Origin: Henricia sp. BOLD:AAB3569
Lineage: Eukaryota; Echinodermata; Asteroidea; Spinulosida; Echinasteridae
Length of the DNA stretch: 64,000 nucleotides
Assembly (NCBI GenBank): GCA_037783545.1
Contig: JBBELK010000298.1
Span: 1,116,001-1,180,000 of the forward strand
Reading direction: 5' to 3'
Position 1 is the first letter of the stretch. Each line of letters starts with the position of its first letter. The notes beneath the pieces were generated by a model that searched no databases, was not told the origin of the DNA, and saw only the letters and a list, made by a program, of their open reading frames with translations. Positions 44,924 through 63,927 of the stretch are shown in pieces. Made by a program: the position numbers and the translations under genes.

Positions 44924-46324
44924 TCACCCAAAAATATTAAGACTTAAAACAATTTGCCTGACTGGATTCGTCTTGTCCAATTCCAAGAACTTTTGCAGAG
45001 GTTTTGGTAGAGGCAGCATGCTGATTTTGTCCTCGATGACGTTATAGATTGAGGAGGTCATGATGAGTTGGCTGCGGAGAACCTTTCTGCATAGTCTCTG
45101 CAAAGTTGGAGGTGTTTCGTGTTTTCTTAGAGCCTCGTAAAGTGCCTCTATTCCGGATAGGTGCGCGGAGAAAGGGATTCTTGCCGTAGGAGGTAGGGTA
45201 TAGCTAAATGTAGCGTCTACGAGTCTCAATATTGTCTTGGAGTCGATCGAGATTACGTCTAGGTTCTCTAGAAGAATGTGAAGAGGAGTCTTGCCGTTGG
45301 CGTCTCGAACATCAGCATCGGCTCCAGCTTGGAGAAGTAAGGTGATGATGGAACTATCTGCTACTCTGCAAGCCGAGTGGAGCGGAGTTTGTCCAGTTTT
45401 ATCCTGGATGTTCAACATCGCTCCTTGACGGAGAAGCATCTTAACACAAGCAAGTCTCTTATGCTGCGGGCATCTGGATTTCACGGCGTGGTGTAAAGCC
45501 GTCTTGCCCAGTGAGCAGACATGGTTGAGCTCTGTTTTGGTGTCCAGGAATATTTTAAGGCACTCGTGTCCCATGGCAGCGGCTAGCATCACCGGAGTCA
45601 TGAGGTCCACGTCTTGGACGTCGAGGCGAGCTCCGTAGCCCAAGAGAACCTTGGCGGCTCCGGGGGTATTGAACCTAGCAGCGTAGTGAAGCGGCGTCTG
45701 CTGGCGGCTGTCTCGGGCACTCACGTTGCCGCCGAATGCGCACAGTCTCTTTAAAGTCTCCCTGCAGATAACTTCTACCGCTCTCAGATACTCGTGGTAG
45801 AGTGCGATCTCTGTAGAGTGCGATCTCCTAGACGGCACCGGGGTGGTTTTAGGAAGGTGCCTGGGCCAGTAGAGGATGCAAGTATGGATGGCCGTTTTTC
45901 CATCGGTGTCTGGCCGATTTGGACCGGCGCCATTTCGCAAAATGAGTTTGACAATCTCTGGTTGTCGGTGCATAACTGCAAAATTAAGAGGTGGAGTGCT
46001 CCTTGGGGCGTCATAAGAGACACCACAACCACCTCTTCCTTCTCGAAGATTGACCACGCCCATGGAGAGGAGATCCTTGCATGCGTTCACATCTCCGGTG
46101 TGTATGGCGCTGTAAACATCTGAAACATCGTCATTTCTCAACGGAACCCGACTTGTGCCTTCTCGATCTCTCGTTCTGTGTCTATTTGACAGGCCTACTC
46201 CGGGCTTGTGGTTTGAAGATAAGAACTTGATTCGAAATTGACGGAAAATATTTCTTCGCTTCAGGAATTCGGGCATTTTCTTTAAGTTGACGAAACGGCC
46301 TTGAACTTGAAGAGAGTGTCTCAC
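44924..46324 (-). CDS. ankyrin-repeat and SOCS-box protein (ASB family), single exon
   Basis: A 466-residue uninterrupted frame. Residues ~1-65 are basic and unstructured. Ankyrin repeats follow at about 67-96 (weak), 109-140, 141-204 (with a long insert), 208-238, 242-270, 272-307, 311-340 and 343-370. Clear ankyrin signatures include TPLHYAARFN, KTALHHAVKS, QTPLHSACR and KTPLHILLE. Residues ~406-448 form a SOCS box: the BC-box pattern TLQRLCRKVLRSQL (Elongin B/C binding) and the Cul5-box pattern LPLPKPLQKFL. ASB proteins are known substrate receptors of Cullin-5 RING ubiquitin ligases; the ankyrin part would bind the substrate. Which vertebrate ASB is the orthologue cannot be told here. I start at the first Met; M17 is an alternative. 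It lies ~3 kb downstream of DRC10 on the same strand. Confidence 0.9.
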   Translation of the reverse strand: MRHSLQVQGRFVNLKKMPEFLKRRNIFRQFRIKFLSSNHKPGVGLSNRHRTRDREGTSRVPLRNDDVSDVYSAIHTGDVNACKDLLSMGVVNLREGRGGCGVSYDAPRSTPPLNFAVMHRQPEIVKLILRNGAGPNRPDTDGKTAIHTCILYWPRHLPKTTPVPSRRSHSTEIALYHEYLRAVEVICRETLKRLCAFGGNVSARDSRQQTPLHYAARFNTPGAAKVLLGYGARLDVQDVDLMTPVMLAAAMGHECLKIFLDTKTELNHVCSLGKTALHHAVKSRCPQHKRLACVKMLLRQGAMLNIQDKTGQTPLHSACRVADSSIITLLLQAGADADVRDANGKTPLHILLENLDVISIDSKTILRLVDATFSYTLPPTARIPFSAHLSGIEALYEALRKHETPPTLQRLCRKVLRSQLIMTSSIYNVIEDKISMLPLPKPLQKFLELDKTNPVRQIVLSLNIFG

Positions 46325-49314: not shown

Positions 49315-49599
49315 CTACTTCTTTTTCCCTTTCTTTCCCTTTTTGCCTTTCTTGCCCTTCTTCTTCTTAGCCTTGAGAGCCTTACGGCATTTGTAGGACC
49401 TCCAGAATGACTGGATGACGGTCGCCCCTTTAATCATCATGGCTAACTCTCTCTCCTCGCGATCTTTCTTCTCTTTGGCGATTCGTTTCTCTTCAACTAT
49501 TGTGTTGTACTCGACTTCCAGAGTAGTGTAACGCTCTTCGAGCTCGTTCAACTGCGCTTTTTCTTCGGTGTAGACGGCATCCAAGTCTTCATACTCATC
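49315..49599 (-). CDS. DRC10: DRC10 exon 4 with IQ motif and Lys-rich tail
   Basis: Acceptor catgtcag|GATGAG. 94 residues and a TAG stop. Starts DEYEDLDAVYTEEKAQLNEL, holds the IQ motif and ends in a KKG-repeat tail. Its acceptor lies only ~13 bp from the edge of a repeat. Confidence 0.85.
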   Translation of the reverse strand, partial: DEYEDLDAVYTEEKAQLNELEERYTTLEVEYNTIVEEKRIAKEKKDREERELAMMIKGATVIQSFWRSYKCRKALKAKKKKGKKGKKGKKGKKK

Positions 49600-52566
49600 C
49601 TGACATGATGAGAAGCCCCAATACATCATTTGCAGTTACCCAAAATTTTATTTCACGAGTTGACAATAAAAAAAAACAGACTAAAAGTGTTGATTGCAAT
49701 GGTAACAAACACCACCATTTTTTCCCAATGTAAAATGGTACCTTTGTGGCCGAAATTGCCAACTGAATTTAAAAAAAATTGTCTGCAGACAATTGTTTAC
49801 CATTCATTTAACACACAAACCAAGCATGGATTTTAAGGTTTTCTAAAGTATTACTGCATTTATGTGGCTAAAATTTGTACAAGGCAGTTTATCCACATTA
49901 CTATTTAGTTGTTTTCCAATCATGTAATCTGTCTTAACAAATTATGACCTGCCACATTAGTTTTTGCCATGACTGGTTGATAATTTGTCCCAGCAAATTG
50001 TTTGTTTTCAAAGAAACCCACCTGTCGTTCACCCACATCCATGTCATACTTCTGAATCCAGTTCTCCACTTCTGTCTCAATCTTGTATTTTCTCTGAAGG
50101 GGAAAGAAATGGATAGAGGTGTATTTTAGACAACACAGAAAGAAAAATGAACAATTGACTACTCTCACAAGATGAAAAAGTGTCTTGAAAGTTTTACATA
50201 AAAGAAACTGACTTTGAAATAAGAAAGGTAAATTATTAAATTTTCATTGTTTTAGATTTGTTTTAAAGAATCAATCCTCCTTTGTTACACTGACGCTCTA
50301 AAACTGATGCTCTAAAATTCTCCCTTCCCTCTGACTGCCCCCTCTCCCCTGACTGCCCTTTCTCCCGACCCCATCCCTCCCAACCCTGACTCATTCCCAA
50401 CCGCCCCCCTCCCCCACCCCAAACCCTCTCCTCCTAACCCTGACCCAATCTCCCTCCCCCAACCCCCTGCCCAAAACCCCCTGCCCAAAAACCCTCCTGC
50501 GCCCCAACCCTCTCCCACCCTCTCCAACCACTTGCCCCCACTCCAAACCCCAGCGGACTACTGTGCCTCCTGACAAAAAAAATATGCTGGCTGTTTGCAA
50601 ATATGTGCGTACTTGGCAGGTTCTCTGCCCCTCTCCCCCCCTCTCCCCCTCTCCCCCCCCCCCCCCCCCCTTCCCCCAAACTGAACTTATTCTGCCACCA
50701 TCTATGACAAGCAAAGGTCTTCTGTTGCCATGGATACAACTTTTTATTTCCCTCACTTTTCTGAGAGCGAGTTCACTCTCCCGGTGCTCTGCCGTATTAG
50801 CAGCAAGTTGGGTCTTCAAAGCCTGTAGTTCTGCTTGTAGTTTGGCAGATTTACCCTCGGAGTTCTTGATGTCGGCCTGCTGTTGTTTCTCAGCTTCGGA
50901 CTTGGTGCGACGGATGTGTTCCTCGGAGAACTTCTCAATCTGATTCAAGTCGGCTTTCAGGCGACGGATCTCTTCGTTTCGTTTGGAAATCTGCGAGGGC
51001 CAAATATTACACAAAACGTAGTTGAAACTGTTAAACTAACGGATATTTCACAAAATCTGGAAAGTGATGAAGTACAGTTGGCTTAGCGGATACTTCGTGC
51101 TATTTAAAGGCACAGGCTCGTCAGCAATGCGCGCGCGCCAAATTCGTGCCACGAAACTAAACTAAACTTGATATCAACAAAAGCACAAAATGTGTACTCA
51201 TGCCCATCTTAAAGATAGTATACATGATTGGTAAACTGTTACAAATAGTTTTATCCCCGTGTGTGATTGAAGATATGCATGATTAAAAAACAACCTGAGC
51301 AAAAACCAGCTCCGTATTTCGTCTAACTTTTGAGAAAACAGTCAAAAAAGGTTTGCAGTCATTTCGCCCCAAAACCACTTCGCCCTGAACCATTTCGCCC
51401 TGAACCACGGCCTATGCACGAAGTGGTTTTGGGGCGAAGTGGCATTTGGGCGACGTGTTTTGCACACGCATTGTGGATTCGAACCCACAACCTGTAGAAT
51501 CAAACGGGTCTTGAATATGATGCACAAGACTCATCAGCCACAGTACTCTAAGGGTCAGAAAATTCAAACGTTGGATTATAACCACCGATTTGGGTTGGAT
51601 TATAACCACCGATTTGGGTGGGATTATAACCACTGACTTGGGTGGGATTGTAACCGTGACCACGGACGGCTCGAATACCTCTTCATCTTTTTTCTCCTCC
51701 CTAGCCTGCAGTTCAGTAGACAGCTTCTTAATCACTTTAGAGTTGTTCCTCTCCCGGATGGTGATGTGAGTCAAGTAGTCCATCTTTTCCTTCTCCTCAA
51801 GAGGTGTCGTTAGAAGACGTTCCAAGGTGAAGCCCCTCATCTCATTCATGTACGTGATCAGCGTGTTTGATTCTTGATCCCTGTTCTTTCGTTCCGCTCG
51901 CACGGCGTTAACAGCAGTGGGATTTAAGGACAGGAGACGGAGAATGTTACGAGTGGAGAAGTTCATCCGTTTCTTTAAGGAAGACAGCATCTTTATGAGA
52001 TTTTCTTCTTCTTTCGACATAACTGGTTGATCCATATCTTCATTCTCGTTACTTCTATCTCCATTGAGGGTGCTGCGTGTGGATGAAATTCGACTTTGCG
52101 TTCGACTGCTCCTATCCGACAGCGCTGACAACATCCTGCTCTCGTGTGATGCAGACAAGGGCTCGGGATTTCTGACGTCCCAAAGTTGATCGCAGGCATC
52201 GAAATACGAGTTTTTGAGGTTTTCATGTTCGTTTATCGCAACGACCAATTCTACTCCGAGAACCACACTGAATCTGTCGATGTTAGCAGTGATATACGGT
52301 AGCAAAGTGACCACTTCAACTCTTTTGATACAATCGTCCAAGACGGCAAGCACGCGCTGAGATTCAACGGTGGTCAGTTTCTTGCGCCCGGGGTCTAAAA
52401 CACGAAGCGGGTCCGTTTTGTGGGGCTTTCCCTCCTTGTATTTTATTTTATGTTTGAACTGTGGTGGCGACTGTGAAATCCTCTCCGTACGTTCGTTTGA
52501 CCCTTCTATTCTTGCTTTGTCGACCAACCTAACAGTTTCCATCACAGCAATGTCTGCAAGGGCCAT
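49315..52566 (-). CDS. DRC10: dynein regulatory complex subunit 10 (IQ-motif protein, IQCD-like), four exons
   Basis: Exons (minus strand): 52,566-51,679; 50,990-50,757; 50,093-50,022; 49,599-49,315. All junctions are phase 0 with GT donors (gtattc, gtgagg, gtgggt) and AG acceptors, giving 492 residues; human IQCD is ~450 from memory. The product is mostly alpha-helical and charged, with coiled-coil-like exons 2-3 (SKRNEEIRRLKADLNQ onward). One IQ calmodulin-binding motif lies near the C-terminus (AATVIQ-type ATVIQSFWRSYKCRK, residues ~457-471) and is followed by a lysine/glycine-rich tail. DRC10 is a component of the nexin-dynein regulatory complex of motile axonemes; that role is taken from the family. 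The start is the first Met of an open exon 601 bp from TPC1. Identity rests on IQ position, overall layout and synteny with TPC1, not on a database search. Confidence 0.82.
49612..49935 (+). repeat. family A repeat in DRC10 intron 3
   Basis: AAGCCCCAATACATCATTTG CAGTTACCC at the left, GTTGATTGCAATGGTAACAA ACACCACC, ATTACTGCATTTATGTGGCT, CAAGGCAGTTTATCCACATT and CCAATCATGTAATCTGTC. It fills most of the 422 bp intron and abuts the acceptor region of exon 4. Confidence 0.8.
50022..50093 (-). CDS. DRC10: DRC10 exon 3
   Basis: Acceptor ccccttcag|AGAAAA, donor CGACAG|gtgggt. 24 residues: RKYKIETEVENWIQKYDMDV GERQ. Too short for an ORF search but joins both neighbours in phase 0. Confidence 0.82.
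50318..50680. repeat. C-rich low complexity in DRC10 intron 2
   Basis: Pyrimidine-rich CCCTCTCC/CCCCAACC words and a pure C run near 50,655-50,672. In the DRC10 transcript this is a G-rich segment. The open frames across it are artefacts. Confidence 0.85.
50757..50990 (-). CDS. DRC10: DRC10 exon 2
   Basis: Acceptor ccctcgcag|ATTTCC, donor AGAAAA|gtgagg. 78 residues, strongly helical and charged (NEEIRRLKADLNQIEKFSEE), a likely coiled coil. Confidence 0.85.
51108..51165 (+). mobile_element. partial AGGCTCGTCA-family TTAA MITE in DRC10 intron 1
   Basis: TTAA at 51,104-51,107 then AGGCACAGGCTCGTCAGCAA TGCGCGCGCGCC and CGTGCCACGAAAC. Only the left arm remains. Confidence 0.75.
51207..51455 (+). 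repeat. dispersed repeat with GGGGCGAA mini-repeats, copy 2
   Basis: CTTAAAGATAGTATACATGA TTGGTAAACTGTTACA through ATTTCGCCCCAAAACC, matching 17,595-17,865. Followed directly by a tRNA-like minus-strand segment. Confidence 0.75.
51455..51525 (-). repeat. tRNA-like B-box segment (SINE fragment)
   Basis: On the minus strand GTTTGATTCTACAGGTTGTG GGTTCGAATCCACAATGCGT. The T arm with B box is perfect; the A-box half is not convincing. Confidence 0.5.
51571..51657. repeat. 24 bp tandem repeat (3-4 copies) beside the DRC10 exon 1 donor
   Basis: Unit GGATTATAACCACCGATTTG GGTT/G. Because 24 is a multiple of three, reading on from exon 1 gives a repeated octapeptide PPKSVVII. It lies 22 bp past the donor, inside intron 1. 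Confidence 0.85.
51679..52566 (-). CDS. DRC10: DRC10 exon 1
   Basis: Encodes residues 1-296, from MALADIAVMETVRLVDKARI to ELQAREEKKDEE. Donor GAG|gtattc. The frame stays open past the donor to 51,412, so intron retention would extend rather than stop the protein. Confidence 0.8.
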
Positions 52567-52853
52567 CTTTTTATTTTTTAGTTTAGCTTAGCTTTGCAGT
52601 TACAATCGTGGACGGGCCAACAACGTCACCACACAACTTGAGGTAGGCCTAGTTCAAAACGTCGTAAATCCTCACTTTCGAGACAGTAAATTCAATCAAA
52701 CATGCCACGGAATGAAGCACAGGATAAATATGTCTTTCGTGCCAAATTGATGATACTGACTATCTTGATATTCCAAGTTTTTACGGACTTTCTTCTTCAC
52801 AGAAAATACGTGAACAGCAATGTAACTCTGAAGTGCCGAACAACACATCATGT

Positions 52854-52860
52854 GTAAACA
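52854..52860 (+). promoter_or_regulatory. forkhead (FOXJ1-type) site
   Basis: GTAAACA, the core forkhead motif (TGTTTAC on the other strand), 288 bp upstream of the DRC10 start. FOXJ1 is the master factor of motile-cilium genes; use here is inferred. The 7-mer can occur by chance. Confidence 0.35.
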
Positions 52861-53047
52861 TTGTTTTCATTCGCCAACAAAAATTAGTGACCAAAATAAT
52901 GTTTTTCCTGATCATAATTTTCAACCAAAACGGTTTTTTGTCAACAGAAATGTAGATAAAATAGCATGCGAGTTATTGTGCGCCACGAACAAATAAAATT
53001 AACAATCTTATGGATTTTGAGCGGATGAATTTTGACACTGTTTTAGC

Positions 53048-53072
53048 GTTGCTAAGGACGTTACTAGGGACA
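53048..53072 (+). promoter_or_regulatory. two tandem RFX X-box-like sites
   Basis: GTTGCTAAGGACG and GTTACTAGGGACA overlap by one base. Each matches the left half GTTRCY and the centre of the RFX consensus GTTGCTAGGCAAC, with a weaker right half. RFX factors drive ciliary genes, which suits DRC10. Confidence 0.45.
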
Positions 53073-53167
53073 TTGAGGTCAAAGGTTATCGCGCTGTCTC
53101 TCGAGAAATCTCGTTTTTACGTTCGATGACATGACCCGATATGCATATATATATGCAGGTCGTAAAC

Positions 53168-53291
53168 ATGGCGCAAGGACGTCGAAGTGTGGTACATTTC
53201 AGCAGAAATAATCATGTTGCACCAAGAATGACTGAGTTAAGAAGCCCTCTTATTTATAGTGCACACAATACAGATCTCGAAGGTGTCGATG
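53168..53291 (+). CDS. TPCN1: TPC1 exon 1
   Basis: MAQGRRSVVHFSRNNHVAPR to NTDLEGVD; donor GATG|gtatga, phase 1. Unstructured cytosolic N-terminus. Two more in-frame Met codons lie 5 and 9 codons upstream. Confidence 0.75.
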
Positions 53292-56200
53292 GTATGAATT
53301 TTACTGTTTATATTTTACATGTTTGTTACTGTTTTGCTGCTTCATAAATGGTTACACTTCCGGCCGATTCGCTGCAGTACCGTGCCGCGCGCGCCTCGCC
53401 GTGCATGTCATGAGTGGACAACGGCTCCTCGCGCCGCGCCACGGTACTGCCTTTGTGCCGCTGCCCGCTGTGTGTCGTGTTTTTCCCCGTGTCGGTAATT
53501 CGGTTTGATCTCGTCTGTCACTGCAGCGAGTAGCAATGTCTAGGGGAAAAATCATTAAACTAGTTTGCATTCTGTTCACTGTTTTCCCACTGCGCTGTGT
53601 GTTAAGAAAATTGTTATGTTAAATGTTTTTCACTTCTAAAATTACTTCCCATTAGTTAAAAAAAAATATTGAACATGTTTTGGTATTTATCAAGTTATTA
53701 TGTAGGGACTTGGAAACCCGTAACGTCATCACGCGCGCACAGGGTACACTAATATTAATACTGGTATTAGTTTCACAGTAGATTTCTGCCGTATGCGAAG
53801 TGGCGCATCATGAGAAAAGCGCTGTAAAACATCACAACATTGTTCAATTCAAACTTTTTTTAATAGATACTGAAAATAAAACACGCTTTCTGACGATATG
53901 TATTTTTAAAACAATTTGTTTTAATATTTATATTGCAACACAGCAAGATGTTTGTTTGACAGTGAGATTTCTGGTCCAAAACGGGTAGTTTGTGTTGCGA
54001 GACAGACTTGTGAAACCGGTGACAATTTGGGGAGATTGTTGTTTGTGTTTGTGCAAAATTTCAGTGAAGAAAACATGTAATTTGCTTGATTGTTTTAGCC
54101 CACAAAAATGATTATCAGCTTCTCTATGTGAACGTCGTCGAGTGCATGGTCTTCATTCCAGTTGTAAATGCATACCATACATTAATTTAGACCACGACGT
54201 TGTGCGCCCTCACATCATCATGTACTATGTCTATTCCTGAACACTTCTGGATTACAATGTGCTGAGGAACAAGATAATTAGCGCTTGAATTAAAGACTAA
54301 CCAATCAAAAGTAATGAGAGCGACGCCAATGAGGGCACTTTGCATCACGTCGCATTTTTTGTAGTACTGGTGCATTCTCTTTCACTGACGATTCCACTGG
54401 GAAACGGACATATTTTAACAAGTAATAAGTATAACACAGCAACCGCTTGATCAATTTTTGCGCCCGAACTATTTTTGAAATCTGTTGGTTGTCTGTGGTT
54501 TGAAGTCAAAATTGGATTTTAAAATTTATTTCTCAATAATGTGCCAACCAGTAAACAAAACTCTTTATGTGGACAAAATTAAAGAATTCCTTCAATTAAA
54601 TTGGCTCAGAAGCCATGGTGTGCTTAAATTCTTTCCGTTTCTGCAATGTGCATACCGGTAGCACACATACATTGTTGTGAATAAACTTGTAATCTGTGGC
54701 ACCATTAATTGTACTGTTTTGTTTTCAGAAATGCAAGATGACACATCAGTAAACACTGATGATTTGTCTCGGGAGGGCACCCGTAAGCGATGGCAGTTTA
54801 ATTACCAAGAAGCGGCCATATATCTCAAGGTACAGTACAAGCCTGAAACTTTACTTTGATAACTTGACCCTTTGTTGGCAACACTGTAGTCAAAATTTGT
54901 ATTCTGTTAATACTGTGTGCATTCAAGGTGCAATTTTCAAACGCAAAAACCAGAATCTCATGTGTTTATTCTAACATTCCAATATTCCATATGCATTATA
55001 GGGGTAGCCCACAGGACGAGTCAGATCAGTGTTTCACTAGTCCTCAATTTTTACTAGTCCGCACCACCACACTTGATTATGTATTTCCATCTTCATTCAA
55101 ACAGTTAGTAACCAAAAAGGGTTACAAATAGTGTGACAACATGCCTTTATAAAAACCCTGTGTACAAATTTCCAATATACGCTCGTAACCAGGACGGACA
55201 CTTGTTACATTTTAGGCCGTCCCGGTTACGAGCGTATACTGGAAATGTGTACACAAGGTTTTTAGAAAGGCATGTTGTTACACTATTTGTAACCCTTTTT
55301 GGGCCTAAGTTAGGGACTTGGAAAAAAAAGTCAAAGTGCGATTTTGATTGAAAATATCATCTCACATTACAGATTATTTTATGTTATTTCTAAAACAGCA
55401 TTTATCGCATAAATTGAGCAAGCGGTAGCCGAGATATGCGTCTTAGGAATCGGCCTTTTTCCCGCGAAATCGTGCGTGTAAACTGATTAGGAGAGAGCTC
55501 GAAGAATGCGATGCAGTATGAAGCGCCCCCACAGTGACATATTGCGCCAAGCCAACGAAGATATCTTCAACTTCAAGTCTGATTAGTCTTAATTCAACAC
55601 GGTTTCTCGTTTTGCGTTAAACTGAGTAATAAGCAATAAAGTGCCAATGCGCCCTCACGTGGCAATTGCGCGCCAAAATAACACTCATCCACAATGTACG
55701 TTTTTTGCGTGTTAATTGGCAGTACACGCGTACCGAAGCGTAGAAGGGACAGGAATAAAAAAAAGTCACACATGTAATAGGGTAAAAGTGGGGGTATTCG
55801 ACCGGATAAGGTTCATTTTAGCATAACAGGAGAAGCAAGGCAAACGTTTTCGACAATCGCAAGTCTAGGTAACTGTCTTTCATTTGCATCAAGCCCGAAA
55901 CTGGAGGACCGATGAATGATGTGCAGTTTGACCACCAAAATGAGGTGTAGATGATGTGGAATTCGACTACTGTGTTAGGTTATTCGTCCAGTGCCATTTG
56001 TACTGAATACATAGTATTGATGGGACTTTGTTTGTTCGAAAATAAACGTACTTGAGTGGTAATTTTATTCTAATCGGCGCAATTTCATAGCGTGCTACTT
56101 GTGTGTGCATGCATTAGAAACACTTTTGGCCATCTATTGAAACATACAAATGATATTCAGAGGATAATTTTCCTGCATGCCAAGAAAATAATAAATGAAA

Positions 56201-59200
56201 AATATTGGACCTTTCGGATCCGTTTGCGCGAGGCGCATGAAATAAAATTGTCAGTGCTTTGAAATTTTGAATTCTTTTCCGAGACGTGTGGGGACGTCCG
56301 CGATTGTCAGTGAGTTCACACCTGTCTGTGTGGTTTAGTGTGTGTGTTTGTTTGTAGTAGGCCTAACAAGTGTTATTTCCTCGATCCCCGCACTTAAACG
56401 CCAGAAAAGGGACACAGTCACAGGATTTCCGACTCCACAAGAAAGACAAAGCCGAGTTATCATTCAATATACTCTCCAGCTAACATACCGCAACACAACA
56501 ACGAAGTCCGGGGCCGTGTGCATCATAAGCACACCGCACAGGAAGCAAGACTAATACAAATAATTGGTAATACATGTACAATGTTATACAATGTAATACA
56601 TAACCCCAGGCGGCACGGGGCCAGACTCTTCTGGCACGCGCCAAAAGGATTGGCGCGTGCTAGCTCTATACGCAAACTAGGTCAATGCTTGGCAGAAGTT
56701 CCGTTCTGCCTCCAGAGTCTGATTAAAGGCACAGTCTCGTCAGCAATGCGCGCGCGGCATATTCGTGCCGTAGCTCGACGAAATACGCCGCGCAATATAT
56801 GACTGCTTCAGCTGATGTCTAGTCAAAAGCGGTCCCGGTTTTCTGGCAGGCCTAGCTTGTTCGCACAATGGTGTCTGTTGCGAAACTTTATTGCAATGCG
56901 GCGGTGCTCGGCCCGGTCACAAGTGCAGATACGTATTTTAACCATTATATTTTGACAAAAATATCCAGCAATGACTGGTCACAATTATTTTAACCAAAAT
57001 GAGTCTCATTTTAAGGCAAACCCTATGCAAAAGAATGGAAAACGCATGACGAATGAAAAACGAACCAAAGGAAAGGCGCCTTATCTTTTTTTCATCCGTC
57101 TTGCGTGCGCGTTTTGCTCCACCCGTTTGTCTGTATCGGGCCATAGAGCGATTGAGATGCAAATAGATAAAACAAAAACGCAGGATGGATAAAATAAACT
57201 TATCGACCTGTAAAGGAAAGGCGCCTTTATTTGGTGTAAACCGACACGCACAAAATTGAACAATCGCAAACACCTAAATTCACCAACCAAATTGATTTTG
57301 CCAATTTTCAGTATTGTTTCACTCTAGACAAAAACATATATTCGTGCCGCGTTCCCGTAAAGTGCACGGACAACAATCGCTTAAAAACGATACAGGTCGA
57401 TTATTTTATCTAACAATTTCGAAATGGTGTTACCAGCGTCAACTATTATGTGGACGTTTCAGAAGTGTAGAATAACAAAAGATATACTCAACGTACGTAA
57501 TGCAACTATAAATTGTTCCCTATAGCCTATAGAAAAATTAACGTATCCGAAGGTTTCGTACGTCAAATGACAGATTACGGAAGAGTTGATTCGAGGTCTA
57601 CTTGTCCGTCGATTTTTCATCCGTCATGTCCGTTGTACGTACAACAGCGCAATCAAAATACATCCACCATATAGTACCACAATTAAGATGGTTCGTTTGA
57701 AAAAAAATCCTGTGGTGAATGTATTCTTTGTTTTGGAACATGTGTCTAAACTCAGGCGGCTGGATCGCTGCTATGAGCTAGCTTTGCTCGCGGAATTGGA
57801 AGGAACGGATGAAAATGGCGCGCGCGATGCGTGCTTCTCGTGTGTGTTGTGCTCAGCTCCGCATATGCGGTTGTTTAGATGCGTCGATAGTGTGAACCAC
57901 TAGTGAAGACGTTAGTGTGTTTCGTGATGATTCATGATACACCACAAAGAAAAAAAATGCATACAAATTATTCATCCATCACGAAAAAAGCGACAAATCC
58001 CCATAACCGGTATCCGTTTTTATGCTACGCGTATGGAGGCCGACATCCGTTATTTACGCATATGAAAACGTGTGTACTTCGGTTACGCATCACGAGAAGC
58101 GCATAGAGTCTGGACGTATCCGTATCGGTATCCGTGACGGTGCGAAACCTCCCTAATATGCACACGTGAGGGCGCGCGACGTCATTGTCTATGTGTAAGC
58201 TCACATTTATGCCTGGAATGAAGACTACGCACTCGACAAAGTGTGCAAGACGGAGCCGTTAATCATTTTTGTGTTCTAAAAATAACAAGCAAGGGGAATG
58301 TTTTCTTCAATGAAATTTGGCATAAACATAAACAACTATCTCCCCAAACTGTGTGTTGGTTTCACAAGTCTGTTTAGCAACATGAACTCCCTTTTTTTGG
58401 GTCATAAATCTCACTATCAAACAAACATATTGCTGCGCCCCACTATAAATCTTTTACAAATCGTTTTAACAAATGCATATCGTCAGAAAAGTATGCCTTT
58501 TTCCACGCATCTATTTAAAAAATGAATGGAACAATGTTGTGAGATTTTAGAGCGCATTTTTCATGATGCGCCACTTCAGAGACAGCAAAAATCCGCTGTG
58601 AAACTAACCATGACTAGTGTACCCAGTGCGCGCGCGATGACGTCACTGATTTCCAAGTCCCTACCTAAGTTATCTCTTCAGAACAACTGAAACTTATTTC
58701 TTTTATTTTGAGACCAGACAAAGGTATTTTCTGGAAAATATTGTCTGTGTTGCCAAAATGCCCCCTTTACCGTGGAAAGACTCATTTGCATTTCGAGTGA
58801 GTAATGCCTCCATTAACGTCTCTCTTGCAGGAAGGTGAAAACAACCATCACTTCAACACCCACCCCAAGAGCCAAGATGCCCTCCCAGCCTACATTCTCA
58901 TCCATAACATATGGTTCTATATGATGGATTTTGCATCCGCTGTCCTCCTGCTTGCCTTGGCACTGTGTGAAAAACCAGCTGTGTACTTATTCCATCTTCA
59001 AGAAACGGTAAGAATCTTTAAGAATCTTTTAACCTAAGTCTTGAACCCCCACTAACTTTATGCTATTTGTGACCATTTTTATGGAAACCAAAGCTAAATC
59101 GCCGGCCGTTGTTTTGAGTAATAGACCGATCCAGTAAGCTCCGCCCATTTTGGAATGACCAATCACAGCCTCAGGTTCAGGTAACCAAAAAGCGGATCTA

Positions 59201-62200
59201 TATTTTGGTTACCTGAGTCCCCAAAATTTTGTGCACAGAGCTACGGCAAATGCAGCACGAGTGACGCAAAAGCACAATAAAGGAGGCCTAGCGCAGAGGA
59301 GGCCTAGCGGGTTTAAAACGGATTGTATAAGACTATCCTAACCTACTATTAATCCCTTCATAAATGTGTTTTTGTGTAAACGTGAAAAACTTACCAAAAT
59401 TAGCTTGTCGTTTTGCTAAGTTGTGCATTCACTTCGTTCTAGATGTGTGTCGATGTTTTTTTTTCGATGGCGCGCGTTACGCGTATTGCAGGCGTGTTGT
59501 ACGTACACGCACACGACCGGATACTTCAGTGCACATTTTGCTTTCGAGCGTGCAGTTTCTGTGTGCGTTTGCGTGTTTCAATACGCGCAGACCAGGGCGC
59601 GGGCGCTGACGCACGGCACGGCCACGCGACTCTACTGCACACGTGCATCGCACGTGTGGCATGTTGCTAGGCAATTTCTAAATGGGCGGAGCTTACTGGA
59701 TCGGTCTATTCCCGCTAAAAGCCACTAAAGAATGTTTGTCCGAAATATGGGAAGTCAGACTTTTGATTTATTCTGTGGTTTTGTTTTTCTCCCTAAATTT
59801 TTACAAAATTTAGGTGATTGTAAATGTCTTAAATTTGATTTAACAAGGCTTTTTGTTTTTAAAAATCTAAACAGAAAAATAGCATTTCTTAGCACAGATA
59901 CTCCAAAATCCACATTCAAAAAAATTGGAAGGTCATATCTCAGTCAACTGTTTGAGATATCTTTATGAATTGTTGTGCTTTGTTTAGCATTGTTCATAAA
60001 ATTTACTCGGCTGCATTTTGAAGATTTGACTTCGTCCAGGTTTTTGCACAGTCACATTAGCTGTTGAAAGTTTGAAGCATGCTCAGGGAAATCTGTTTGT
60101 GTACGGATGGTGCACTCAGTTTCAACTTGAACACTGTTTGAGACTTGAAACGCCCGAACTAATTGTGTGAGCTTTTCAGCCTTACATTGGCAGCCAAATA
60201 TTTTGAAAAGCATGAATGTTAGTCATCTTGTGTGATTTTGTTTCTCTTATGCTCTGTTTTTATCAGATTCACGGTTCTGTGGAACTGTTTCTCCTGACCA
60301 TCATTGCCATTGGTCTGGGGCTTAAGATCAGATGGCTTGGGGTCAAGAAATTCTTCCTACACAAGAGAACTGCAATTAAGGTTAGTTTCATTGATGAGTC
60401 GTTTTACCCAGGTGTATTCAAAACTTTGAATGGAACCCAACTAACTGTTTGGAGTAATCCTGTGGTTAACTGGCATTCCGTTTATAGTGTTAGGAGCCAA
60501 TTTATAGTGTTTCATCTATTCTATTTTTCTTTGCAGACTGTTGTGCTTATAGTGATGTACTGTGAGGCCATAATAGTACTGGTCAGACAACAGAGTCACT
60601 TCCGCATTACGCGATCACTCCGGCCGTTTTTCCTGATTGATTGCCATTATTGCGGAGGAGTCAGAAGGTACATTAAACACTTTGCCTGTTACAGAGTTTA
60701 AAGGCCCAGTGGATCATTTGCAATGACCCCAAAAAGTAATCGACGAGTTTACAGGGGAAAAGTTCTGAAAGTAAAGATTTAATTAATAGCAACTATCCAA
60801 TGAAAGGTTTTCGCTCAAAATGATATAATTTTACCAGAAAATAATCCGTAAAGATGAAATTATTTAGATCGTTTGCAAACGATTTACTTATTTTTGGTTC
60901 GCATCTACGCGGTCCAAAATGCATGGGCGCTGTGTACTCCGTGTGCATGTTCCAACGCGATGCATTTTTATGGATCGCGCGCGCACGCAGTATGTGCGCC
61001 ACAGAGTGCATGACGCAAGCCACACAGTACCCGATTAACTGAGAACGAATATTTGAAACACCCCGCCAAGACCAGGAAAATGCATATGGATTTTCATGGT
61101 TTTTTTAAACGTGGTACATTTGACAAAGCTGAAACTTCTTCGGATGAGTTTGTTGATGTCTTTCTTTTGATTTATAATGGTTTTATTCGCAGAATCGCTC
61201 AAAAACAGATCATCTACAGGGCCTTTAAACCTGGCCCACCACACAATTTTTTGCCATTCATAAATACCTTTTTGTGTAAATCGCCAAAAATCTCAGATTT
61301 CTCGACAGTGAACTTCATTAACAGTTTATGTGATCATGTGTCCAGGGGCCAATTTCATAGAGCTGTTTAGCAGCCGATTTTGTGCTAACGGAGGCTCTGG
61401 CTATTTCATGGAGACCGTAACCTTAAGCATTGCAAAACGTTTGCTAGCTTCAGAGCCAAAATTTGCTAAACATTAGTAACGCAACAATGCCCGTTTCCTA
61501 GCATGCGCATACTTAAGCTTAAGCACGCCGCGACCGTGAAATAACCTTAACGTTAGCGCAACCTTTCTGCTACAGTAAGCACACATATTCTGCTAGCGCT
61601 TGAGCAGCGCCATGAAATTGGCCCCAGATCTTGTATCTGCTTCACTTTGTGTTTGAAGATTAAGGAATATACACAGGCCTGACTTTGGCGAATCCCTATT
61701 TTCACAAATTTTGTTGTTCTTCCTCAGAGTACTTCGTCAAATCTTTCAGTCACTACTTCCCATTCTAGACGTGATGGTACTACTTTTTTACTTCATGGTC
61801 ATCTTTGCAATTTTAGGTGAGAACACATGGCTTCCTGCATTATCATTTAATGAAATGATCTTATAGTATTGGGTCAGGCTTGAGTATAAAGATATCTACA
61901 TGGTGGTCTCCTAGGTTTAAACCCACTACTACTAAGAAGGCTAAAAGTTAGTCTTTGATGTTAACTTTTGGACGACAGATGTCACTTTAAAGGCCCTATG
62001 TACAATGTATCATTCGCAAGATACAACTTTTTGCGGATTCGTGGAATAAGAGTGTAAAATATCTAAGGAAGAATGTTGGTAAACTAGTCTGAAGAAATTT
62101 TAGCTACATAGATGCATAAGTGCTTCAGAAAACCTTGAAAATCTATATATGGATTTTGCGTACAAGTAAATGGTATTTTTTAGAAACCCTTCTTCTGTTG

Positions 62201-63927
62201 TCAATTTCCAACATGAAATACCATTTTTGACGGAAATCAATTCATGTGGTGTTTGTTACCATTGCTATCAACACTTTGAGTATTAAAGGTTTTTCTTGTC
62301 AACTCATGAAAAACAAAAATGGGTCATTGCAAATGATACAATGTACTTTAAGAGCTTCGCTAAATAAACCCGCTGCCATCTTAGTCTGTGTTTGATTTTC
62401 TACTTTTTAGAAAAGTATTTAATTATTTTTTAGTTTTTCTCTCTAATCTTGTATTCACATAATGTGTTGTCCTGTTTTCCAGGTTTCTTCCTTTTTGCTA
62501 ATTCCGACACAAACTTTGACAGTCTGCTGGACAGTTTTGTCAGTCTCTTCATCCTAATGACGTCTGCCAAGTTAGTAACATTTTTTTCGGTTACAAAAGA
62601 GAATGTGTAGCAGTACTTTAATCAATTTTTAAAAGGTTTTTCTTTTTTTCCAGTTAATTGTCCCATTCTTAATCTGCAAGTCCTGTATGCGTCGCTAAAC
62701 ACCAAATTGATTTTAAAAACCAATTATCTGAATGATTGTCATCTGAAAATTTGTCTTTAGTTTGCTTTCATTGTCTTGGTGTTGTCTTTCTATTTTCAGT
62801 TCTCCTGATGTCATGATGCCTGCCTACAACAAGAGTCGCTGGTCCGTCATATTTTTCATCGTCTACATCGTACTAGAATTGTTTTTTTTTATGAATTTGG
62901 TAAGTAAAATAATTTTTTAAAAGAAAGTAAATTCAAGTGATGTTCAGATTAAAGGCCCTGTAGATAATCTGTTTTTGAGCGATTCTGCGAATAAAACCAT
63001 TATAAATCAAAAGAAAGACATCATCCGAAGAAATTTCAGCTTTGTCAAATGTACCACGTTTAAACAAATATGAAAATCCATATGCATTTTCCTGGTCTTG
63101 GCGGGGTGTTTGAAATATTCGTTCTCAGTTGATCGGGTACTATGTGGGTTGCGTCATGCACTCTGTGGCGCACATCATATACTGCGTGTGCGCGCGATCC
63201 ATAAAAATGCATCGCGTTGGAACACGCACACGCAGTACACAGCGCCCATGCATTTTGGACCGCGTAGATGCGAACCAAAAATAAGTAAATCGTTTGCAAA
63301 CGATCTCAATAATTTCATCTGTACAGATTATTTTCTGGTAAAATTATATCATTTTGAGCGGAAACTTTTCATTGGGTAGTTGCTATTAATTCAATCTTTA
63401 CTTTCAGAACTTTTCCACTGTAAACTCGTCATTGCAAATGATACACTGGGCCTCTAAACCCAAGAGCTGTATTAGAAAAACCTCAATGTAAGGGAAGACA
63501 CACATCTAACCGCCGGTACCGACAGCGGTACCGCCTTTTTTTTTAGCGGTACCACCTGCACAAATGAAGAAAGATTGTGGTTTTTCCCTTCGTGCAGGTG
63601 TTACTGCTAAAAAAAAATGCCAGTACCGCTGTCGGTGACGGCCGGTTAGATTTGTGCGTCTTCCCTAAAACAACCTTTATATAGCGGGTTTTTTTGGTGT
63701 CGTTATAGCTTAGAACTTCATAATTATCAGTATTACAAATCATGCTTATTTCCTTTGTTTTGTGAATACGTTTTGTGTAATAATTTGTGGCTTTGTTATG
63801 TTTGTTTCAGCTATTGGCCGTTGTGTATGACACATTCACTAAAGTTGAGAAAGCTAAATTTAAGGAGTTGCATCTTCACAAGAGAACAGGGGCCAGCAAA
63901 GCCTTCAAGCTCCTATGTAGTAGACAG
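53168..63927 (+). CDS. TPCN1: two-pore channel 1 (TPC1), N-terminal part, nine exons, runs off the window
   Basis: Exons: 53,168-53,291; 54,729-54,829; 58,831-59,007; 60,267-60,380; 60,537-60,667; 61,728-61,816; 62,483-62,570; 62,800-62,899; 63,811-63,927. All junctions are GT/AG and join in frame to 347 residues. TPCs are endolysosomal voltage/NAADP/PI(3,5)P2-linked cation channels built from two six-segment domains; this part holds the cytosolic N-terminus and all of domain I. Segments: S1 ~97-120, S2 ~139-157, S3 ~173-188, S4 ~189-207 (RITRSLRPFFLID, few arginines), S5 ~228-250, pore with TSANSPDVMMPAY (272-284), S6 ~291-313 ending LLAVVYDTF, then the start of the linker (KRTGASKAFKLL). 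CGGVRR and QIFQSLLP after S4 match TPC1 closely. The second domain must lie beyond 64,000. Upstream in-frame Met codons at 53,141 and 53,153 are alternatives; 53,168 has the best context (aaacATGG). Confidence 0.92.
53374..53450. repeat. 77 bp GC-rich hairpin in TPC1 intron 1
   Basis: Arms GCAGTACCGTGCCGCGCGCG and CGCGCCGCGCCACGGTACTG C fold with ~20 bp of stem around a CATG-containing loop. It may be a tiny MITE or another hairpin; no other copy in the window. Confidence 0.6.
53703..54240 (+). mobile_element. ~535 bp MITE in TPC1 intron 1 (TAGGGACTTGG family)
   Basis: Starts TAGGGACTTGGAAACCCGTA then ACGTCATCACGCGCGCACAG GGTACACTA, and ends near GTGCGCCCTCACATCATCAT. Matches 58,151-58,666 in reverse over its whole length (for example GTGGCGCATCATGA, TTCTGACGATATG, AAACATTGT-like and CATTCCAG words). 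No coding frame. Confidence 0.8.
54729..54829 (+). CDS. TPCN1: TPC1 exon 2
   Basis: Acceptor ttttcag|AAATGC, donor CTCAAG|gtacag. Encodes EMQDDTSVNTDDLSREGTRK then RWQFNYQEAAIYLK; the YQEAAIYL motif is conserved in TPC1. Confidence 0.88.
55114..55303. mobile_element. ~190 bp palindromic MITE in TPC1 intron 2
   Basis: AAAAAGGGTTACAAATAGTG TGACAACATGCC on the left; GGCATGTTGTTACACTATTT GTAACCCTTTTT on the right. Inner arms TATACGCTCGTAACCAGGAC and GTCCCGGTTACGAGCGTATA. Almost entirely self-complementary. Confidence 0.9.
55309..55670 (+). repeat. possible diverged TAGGGACTTGG-family element
   Basis: Starts TTAGGGACTTGGAAAAAA and ends near ATGCGCCCTCACGTGGC, the same two terminal words as 53,703-54,240, but the interior does not match clearly. 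Weak call. Confidence 0.3.
55671..56726. other. TPC1 intron 2, no feature recognised
   Basis: Unique-looking intron DNA with no open frame or repeat that I can support. Confidence 0.35.
56727..56805 (+). mobile_element. partial AGGCTCGTCA-family TTAA MITE in TPC1 intron 2
   Basis: TTAA at 56,723-56,726 then AGGCACAGTCTCGTCAGCAA TGCGCGCGCGG and a diverged CGTGCCGTAGCTCGACGAAA TACGC. Right end decayed. Confidence 0.7.
56806..58150. other. TPC1 intron 2, no gene supported
   Basis: Short frames at 57,586-57,903 and mirrored ones at 56,940-57,290 show no domain. AGGAAAGGCGCCT appears twice (57,068 and 57,212) but no element is defined. Confidence 0.35.
58151..58666 (-). mobile_element. ~515 bp MITE in TPC1 intron 2 (TAGGGACTTGG family), inverted to the intron 1 copy
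   Basis: CCCTAATATGCACACGTGAG GGCGCGCGACGTCA at left; GCGCGATGACGTCACTGATT TCCAAGTCCCTA at right. Reverse complement of the 53,703 element. Exon 2 lies between the two copies. Confidence 0.8.
58831..59007 (+). CDS. TPCN1: TPC1 exon 3 (S1)
   Basis: Acceptor tcttgcag|GAAGGT, donor AAACG|gtaaga. EGENNHHFNTHPKSQDALPA then the first transmembrane segment (YILIHNIWFYMMDFASAVLL). Preceded by a good pyrimidine tract. Confidence 0.93.
59119..59710. mobile_element. 592 bp element with perfect 31 bp inverted ends in TPC1 intron 3
   Basis: Left AATAGACCGATCCAGTAAGC then TCCGCCCATTT; right AAATGGGCGGAGCTTACTGG then ATCGGTCTATT. A smaller internal palindrome built on GGTAACCAAAAAGCGGATC and TATATTTTGGTTACCTGA lies at about 59,178-59,215. 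No transposase. TA-rich flanks. Confidence 0.88.
60267..60380 (+). CDS. TPCN1: TPC1 exon 4 (S2)
   Basis: Acceptor tttatcag|ATTCAC, donor ATTAAG|gttagt. IHGSVELFLLTIIAIGLGLK then IRWLGVKKFFLHKRTAIK; KxRWLG and HKRT are TPC1 hallmarks. Confidence 0.93.
60537..60667 (+). CDS. TPCN1: TPC1 exon 5 (S3-S4)
   Basis: Acceptor tttgcag|ACTGTT, donor AGAAG|gtacat, phase 2. TVVLIVMYCEAIIVLVRQQS, HFRITRSLRPFFLIDCHYCG, GVRR. The domain I S4 has few basic residues, as known for TPCs. Confidence 0.93.
60702..61224 (+). mobile_element. 523 bp TTAA MITE (family C) in TPC1 intron 5
   Basis: TTAA at 60,698-60,701 and 61,225-61,228. Left AGGCCCAGTGGATCATTTGC, right GATCATCTACAGGGCCT. Matches 62,953-63,453 in reverse over its full length, including TCGTTTGCAAACGATTTACT and ACCCCGCCAAGACCAGGAAA. 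The open frame from 61,053 runs through it and is not a gene. Confidence 0.9.
61345..61625. mobile_element. MITE with GGGGCCAATTTCAT ends in TPC1 intron 5
   Basis: GGGGCCAATTTCATAGAGCT at left; GCGCCATGAAATTGGCCCC at right. The interior has GCTAAC/TTAGC-like words but is only partly palindromic. Same terminus as 40,614-40,834. Confidence 0.8.
61728..61816 (+). CDS. TPCN1: TPC1 exon 6 (S5)
   Basis: Acceptor tcctcag|AGTACT, donor TTTTAG|gtgaga. VLRQIFQSLLPILDVMVLLF then YFMVIFAIL. Confidence 0.9.
61991..62347 (-). mobile_element. 357 bp TTAA MITE (family B) in TPC1 intron 6
   Basis: TTAA at 61,987-61,990 and 62,348-62,351. Left AGGCCCTATGTACAATGTAT CATTCGCAAG, right CATTGCAAATGATACAATGT ACT. 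Interior matches 18,669-18,997 in the same orientation. Fills more than half of the intron. Confidence 0.9.
62483..62570 (+). CDS. TPCN1: TPC1 exon 7 (pore approach)
   Basis: Acceptor tttccag|GTTTCT, donor GCCAA|gttagt. GFFLFANSDTNFDSLLDSFV then SLFILMTSA, the first half of the pore region. Confidence 0.9.
62800..62899 (+). CDS. TPCN1: TPC1 exon 8 (selectivity filter, S6)
   Basis: Acceptor attttcag|TTCTCC, donor AATTTG|gtaagt. NSPDVMMPAYNKSRWSVIFF then IVYIVLELFFFMNL. The filter motif is split between exons 7 and 8. Confidence 0.92.
62953..63453 (-). mobile_element. 501 bp TTAA MITE (family C) in TPC1 intron 8
   Basis: TTAA at 62,949-62,952; right flank decayed to CTAA at 63,454-63,457. Reverse complement of the intron 5 copy. 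Exons 6, 7 and 8 lie between the two. Confidence 0.88.
63491..63666. mobile_element. 176 bp palindromic MITE in TPC1 intron 8
   Basis: AGGGAAGACACACATCTAAC CGCCGGTACCGACAGCGGTA on the left; TACCGCTGTCGGTGACGGCC GGTTAGATTTGTGCGTCTTC CCT on the right. Inner arms ACCACCTGCAC and GTGCAGGTGTT. Nearly complete hairpin. Confidence 0.9.
63811..63927 (+). CDS. TPCN1: TPC1 exon 9 (end of S6, start of interdomain linker)
   Basis: Acceptor gtttcag|CTATTG, donor AGACAG|gtaaat. LLAVVYDTFTKVEKAKFKEL then HLHKRTGASKAFKLLCSRQ. The gene continues beyond the window. Confidence 0.9.

Follow-up and report, generated by a model that had tools for sequence, protein, structure and literature searches.

A head-to-head pair of DRC10 (IQCD) and TPC1 genes in the sea star Henricia, probably shared by descent with vertebrates

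A stretch of 64,000 nucleotides from the genome of the sea star Henricia sp. BOLD:AAB3569 (assembly GCA_037783545.1, contig JBBELK010000298.1, positions 1,116,001 to 1,180,000; hereinafter the window, in whose own coordinates all features are given) contains two neighbouring genes that point away from each other, namely DRC10/IQCD on the minus strand and the 5′ part of the two-pore channel (TPC) gene TPC1 on the plus strand. In the gene models rebuilt here, the two start codons (ATG at 52566 and ATG at 53168, respectively) are separated by exactly 601 bp, the same distance that was reported in the first-pass annotation; this figure is conditional because the first exon of TPC1 is weakly supported. 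The two genes are head to head and close to each other whichever start codon applies. The pair very probably was inherited from the common ancestor with vertebrates. We give an approximately even chance to the fuller explanation, namely that orthologues of IQCD and TPCN1 form a divergent pair of such descent that has been kept together by overlapping 5′ regulatory DNA.

The DRC10 gene is complete (49315..52566, minus strand). Its model, built from splice sites and reading frames, consists of four exons (52566-51679, 50990-50757, 50093-50022 and 49599-49315) with both the ATG and the stop codon present and encodes 492 amino acids (aa); all introns are GT-AG, and the frame is open across every join, without an internal stop. 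The identities of both genes were assessed in one-way phmmer searches against sequences of proteins with solved structures. The DRC10 product aligns with chain 8j07, which we take to be the human protein, at 278 bits (E 1.3e-81), the alignment covering query residues 49-118 and 193-492, i.e. most of the length. A second DRC10 chain, 9fqr, likewise scores 278 bits, and the distant DRC10 chain 8glv scores 66.5 bits; the DRC9 chains score lower (58.3, 54.6 and 36.1 bits). The last exon encodes a C-terminal IQ motif (PF00612, 26.4 bits vs the Pfam cut-off of 20.3). With 278 vs 58.3 bits for the best DRC9 chain, this IQ-motif gene is clearly best assigned to DRC10/IQCD and not to DRC9, in agreement with the axonemal identity proposed for it in the first-pass annotation. 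DRC10 is a coiled-coil IQ protein that belongs to the dynein regulatory complex of motile cilia and sperm tails. In the literature, IQCD is named as DRC10/CFAP84 (PMC7606486). Intron 1 of the gene contains a 24-bp tandem repeat (51573-51655; 3.5 copies, 93% matches) that lies approximately 25 bp past the exon 1 donor, and the open frame continues through this repeat.

The product of TPC1 is a cation channel of the endolysosomal system. The Henricia gene, which is modelled from 53168 to 63927 on the plus strand and runs off the window, is represented by nine exons that together encode 344 aa. Exons 2-5 (54729-54829, 58831-59007, 60267-60380 and 60537-60667) and exons 6-9 (61728-61816, 62483-62570, 62800-62899 and 63811-63927), jointly spanning 54729..63927, encode domain I of the channel and the beginning of the linker. 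As in DRC10, all introns are GT-AG and the frame is open across the joins, without an internal stop. Domain I matches the ion-channel domain PF00520 (80.7 bits on a preliminary stitched sequence), and domain II would fall past the window end. The channel aligns with the TPC1 chain 6c96 at 373 bits (E 1.4e-110), with the same residue in 168 of the 295 aligned positions, compared to 103.4 bits for the TPC3 chain 6v1q, 84.5 bits for TPC2 and at most 75.6 bits for a second TPC1-named group led by 6e1k. We take 6c96 to be the mouse chain, 6v1q that of zebrafish, 6nq0 a human one and the 6e1k group plant TPC1. Four of the five positions that we presume to contact phosphatidylinositol 3,5-bisphosphate in mouse TPC1 (K87, R220, R221, R224 and K331, a list that was not found in the literature checked) carry the mouse residue, namely R220, R221, R224 and K331; K87 is replaced by H. 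By these scores, the channel is clearly best classified as TPC1, not TPC2, TPC3 or plant TPC1, and the corresponding claim of the first-pass annotation, which had named TPC2 and TPC3 as the alternatives, holds. The window covers no more than the beginning of the channel, and it could be argued that one of the two genes has been misassigned, the channel really being TPC2 or TPC3 or the IQ gene really being DRC9; set against scores of 373 bits vs 103 (TPC3) and 84.5 (TPC2), and of 278 vs 58 bits for the IQ gene, such an error has a negligible probability. As far as the sequences of solved structures go, the phmmer scores rule out the TPC2, TPC3 and DRC9 identities. The sea urchin has three TPC genes according to a review (PMC7312350).

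The introns of TPC1 contain several repeats. An inverted repeat of approximately 530 bp, with 90% identity between the two arms (60696-61228 and 62949-63459), brackets exons 6, 7 and 8 and could favour the formation of circular RNA or RNA editing of this region. Two imperfect palindromes (55112-55302 and 63491-63666; 88% and 79%, respectively) are perhaps small inverted-repeat transposons.

The distance between the two genes depends on the predicted exon 1 of TPC1 (53168-53282), which is uncertain. The evidence for this exon consists of an open frame, the favourable context of its ATG (AAACATGGC, with A at -3 and G at +4) and a weak donor: scored with a donor-site matrix, the donor at 53282 has a log-odds value of 0.04, compared to 1.06 to 5.36 for the remaining eight TPC1 donors. 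The exon may instead end at 53291, where an alternative in-frame donor scores 2.2, or may be non-coding. Alternative in-frame ATGs at 53141, 53153, 53228 and, within exon 2, 54731 would bring the spacing to 574, 586, 661 and 2164 bp, respectively. No recognised gene lies between DRC10 and TPC1, and the longest open frame that fits entirely into the interval from the DRC10 start to TPC1 exon 2 encodes 88 aa. A copy of an interspersed repeat (53698..54213), which matches an inverted copy at 58166-58668 at 77%, adds to the distance from exon 1 to exon 2.

The first-pass annotation had further claimed that the linkage of the two genes is old, with human IQCD and TPCN1 likewise head to head on 12q24; of this claim, the proximity is borne out in cattle and herring, whereas the human orientation is presumed, here as there. 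Human TPCN1 is located on chromosome 12 (PMC6162333), and in cattle IQCD and TPCN1 are listed together among the genes no farther than 0.5 Mb from two single-nucleotide polymorphisms (SNPs) (PMC6125589). On chromosome 8 of the Atlantic herring, coding SNPs are recorded at 21,072,591 and 21,077,772 for tpcn1 and at 21,086,634 and 21,088,137 for iqcd (PMC7115899), such that the innermost listed coding SNPs of the two genes are 8.9 kb apart. The tpcn1 changes sit at residues 245 and 537 (PMC7115899). By a hand count on the alignment, the Q>H change fits residue 537, which corresponds to the glutamine of S4 in domain II (Q543 of 6c96), and the S>P change fits residue 245, near S256 of 6c96; because of this fit, the 5′ end of herring tpcn1 probably faces iqcd, as in a head-to-head pair. 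Among the papers that name IQCD, DRC10 or TPCN1, no statement on the orientation of the pair was found in the parts of the main texts covered; the covered part of one of these papers includes both names among expression genes and contains nothing on position (PMC11675479). Likewise, nothing that bears on the IQCD-TPCN1 pair was found in the parts covered of two papers on TPCN1 and synteny (PMC6162333 and PMC6679542), and the literature search found no paper combining the term bidirectional promoter with TPCN1. A human gene map would in any case show the layout of the pair.

Independent origins of the pairing in Henricia and in vertebrates appear very improbable. The window shows two neighbour pairs (ASB-like/DRC10 and DRC10/TPC1, the former described below); given approximately 20,000 genes, the chance that one of them matches a vertebrate neighbour pair is, by our own arithmetic, about 1e-4, and less if orientation is considered. 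Provided that the vertebrate genes are linked as outlined above, common descent is therefore likely. In a search for relatives of the two genes in viral contigs, nine pattern matches were obtained for DRC10, none of which was confirmed, and there were no pattern matches for TPC1.

The 601-bp stretch between the start codons (52567..53167) is a candidate divergent promoter. Its GC content is 0.37, and its observed/expected (o/e) CpG ratio is 1.28, compared to 0.96 for the window. A pair of candidate tandem RFX (X-box) half-sites is located at 53048..53068 on the plus strand, with GTTGCTA at 53048 and GTTACTAGG at 53060, in the same orientation and 12 bp apart. Of the 37 RFX half-sites in the 64-kb window, no other two form such a tandem within 20 bp, and among 2000 Markov shuffles of the gap sequence, 3 yielded one. 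The RFX motif was tested only after the site had been noticed; we regard the half-site pair as a lead, that is, a candidate element.

Fifteen motif patterns were counted in the 2.16 kb from the DRC10 start to TPC1 exon 2, with the expectations scaled from the whole window. There were no matches in this interval to CLEAR (coordinated lysosomal expression and regulation), NRF1, YY1 and E-box patterns or to X-boxes with 1-3 spacer bases (0.41 to 1.76 expected for each). The unspaced X-box with two mismatches was matched twice (one site, on both strands) vs 1.56 expected, GTTGCYA once vs 0.61, GTTRCYAGG once vs 0.14 and CCAAT four times vs 4.09. More matches than expected were obtained for FOXJ1-like sites (4 vs 1.52), for sites resembling the cAMP response element with one mismatch (6 matches at 3 sites vs 2.23), for TATA-like sites (6 vs 1.49) and for ETS (1 vs 0.07, the match being located at 53356 within the putative intron 1 of TPC1). 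Because 15 patterns were tried, these excesses are weak.

Under the explanation given at the outset, DRC10 and TPC1 would have been inherited as divergent neighbours from an ancestor shared with vertebrates, the 5′ regulatory DNA of the two genes would overlap, and a break between them would harm at least one of the two. That the overlap of regulatory DNA makes a break damaging would be the likeliest reason for the retention of the pair; as its actual cause, we give this overlap approximately even odds. The principal alternative is inertia: the pair would be inherited in this case too, with each gene served by its own promoter and without selection, as one of many neighbour pairs that happen to have remained unbroken. 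No joint biochemical role of the DRC10 and TPC1 proteins is known to us, as would be expected under inertia, whereas two considerations speak for a constraint, namely that no tandem pair of RFX half-sites occurs in the window outside the gap and that a high degree of conservation is ascribed to close divergent pairs (PMC3815023). We treat inertia as a tenable possibility that nevertheless falls short of an even chance.

Several points weigh against a conserved, jointly regulated pair. The human orientation is a presumed one. The reading of orientation in herring applies to tpcn1, not to iqcd, and the assignment of the serine and glutamine behind it rests on alignment to a mammalian sequence; moreover, both the herring and the cattle records are records of proximity, not of adjacency, and in herring a further gene may intervene. 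Many vertebrate bidirectional promoters arose after the chicken-fish split (PMC2423431). In Henricia, exon 1 of TPC1 is weak, and the true distance between the two genes may be approximately 2.2 kb, with translation starting in exon 2. In 200-bp bins across 52000-53999, a range that includes the DRC10 exon, CpG o/e varies from 0.85 to 1.65, and therefore this ratio does not single out the gap. The RFX half-sites, which were noticed before testing, are separated from the DRC10 start codon by 482 bp and do not form a full X-box, and no CLEAR site is present in the 2.16 kb even when two mismatches are allowed. Finally, two observations on expression fit inertia better: zebrafish tpcn1 peaks in the mature ovarian follicle and not in the testis, whereas IQCD is a testis gene (PMC7115899), and mouse Tpcn1 has two promoters, one of which adjoins exon 3 (PMC4386455), so that control from the DRC10 side could account for no more than a part of TPC1 expression. 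A single promoter serving both genes, as suggested in the first-pass annotation, is a possibility.

Should co-expression be relevant, our first guess for its site would be the male germ line, because both IQCD and two-pore channels have been connected in the literature with sperm and with the acrosome reaction. IQCD is reportedly called an acrosomal protein in the title of a cited study. IQCD is listed as testis-expressed in a table (PMC7115899), and nicotinic acid adenine dinucleotide phosphate (NAADP), which is made in sea urchin sperm, and TPCs, the member being unspecified, are involved in the acrosome reaction (PMC4497595). A much more far-reaching scenario would be that an RFX-driven divergent promoter has bound DRC10 to TPC1 since before the echinoderm-chordate split and placed TPC1 in the motile-cilium or sperm gene programme, which would explain a role in acrosomal calcium release; we consider this scenario unlikely.

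Compared with the vertebrate IQCD-TPCN1 neighbourhood, the window contains the same two orthologues close together, and the 5′ end of herring tpcn1 would face iqcd as described above; the flank differs in that a gene with ankyrin repeats and a SOCS box adjoins DRC10 here, whereas the cattle list includes DDX54, RITA1 and CFAP73, a comparison that extends to the one visible flank. Bidirectional promoter pairs are defined by transcription starts of divergent genes within 1 kb of each other. The Henricia genes resemble conserved pairs of this class in being divergent, in having start codons that are probably less than 1 kb apart and in probably forming an old orthologous pair, but differ in that the gap lacks a GC-rich island; the comparison is one of start codons (574-661 or 2164 bp). 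A 2012 study by Irimia et al. is said to deal with ancient metazoan microsynteny. Evc and Evc2 similarly are an old divergent pair that encodes cilium proteins, but these genes arose by duplication and their products interact (PMC3052239), whereas DRC10 and TPC1 are unrelated proteins.

Taken alone, the observation adds one more old divergent pair to a class that is already recognised. If the arrangement is conserved from this lineage to mammals, it would be a simple test case for why some neighbouring genes never separate, one gene functioning in motile cilia and sperm and the other in lysosome-related calcium stores. NAADP signalling has classically been studied in the sea urchin. Given such conservation, the intergenic stretch would be a small promoter amenable to testing, and a knock-out that targets the 5′ end of Tpcn1 may affect Iqcd as well, and vice versa.

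The next recognised gene past DRC10 on the side away from TPC1, on the same (minus) strand, is a single-exon frame (44924-46276) that encodes ankyrin repeats and a C-terminal SOCS box and is ASB-like. A codon-usage scan of the left part of the window yielded five segments, of which one corresponds to the ASB-like gene, three to DRC10 and one to a weak stretch of 57 aa; the scan was trained on the same three genes and missed the short TPC exons, so that genes with short exons may escape it. None of eight further frames (7 of the 61 listed frames and the 57-aa stretch) matched Pfam at an E value of 0.01, and no tRNAs were found in the window. The 8-mer TAGGCCTA occurs 15 times in the window vs 0.9 expected from base composition, an approximately 16-fold over-representation. 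This 8-mer is presumed to be common in echinoderms and some of their relatives, a weak indication, and it is a possible mark of the lineage.

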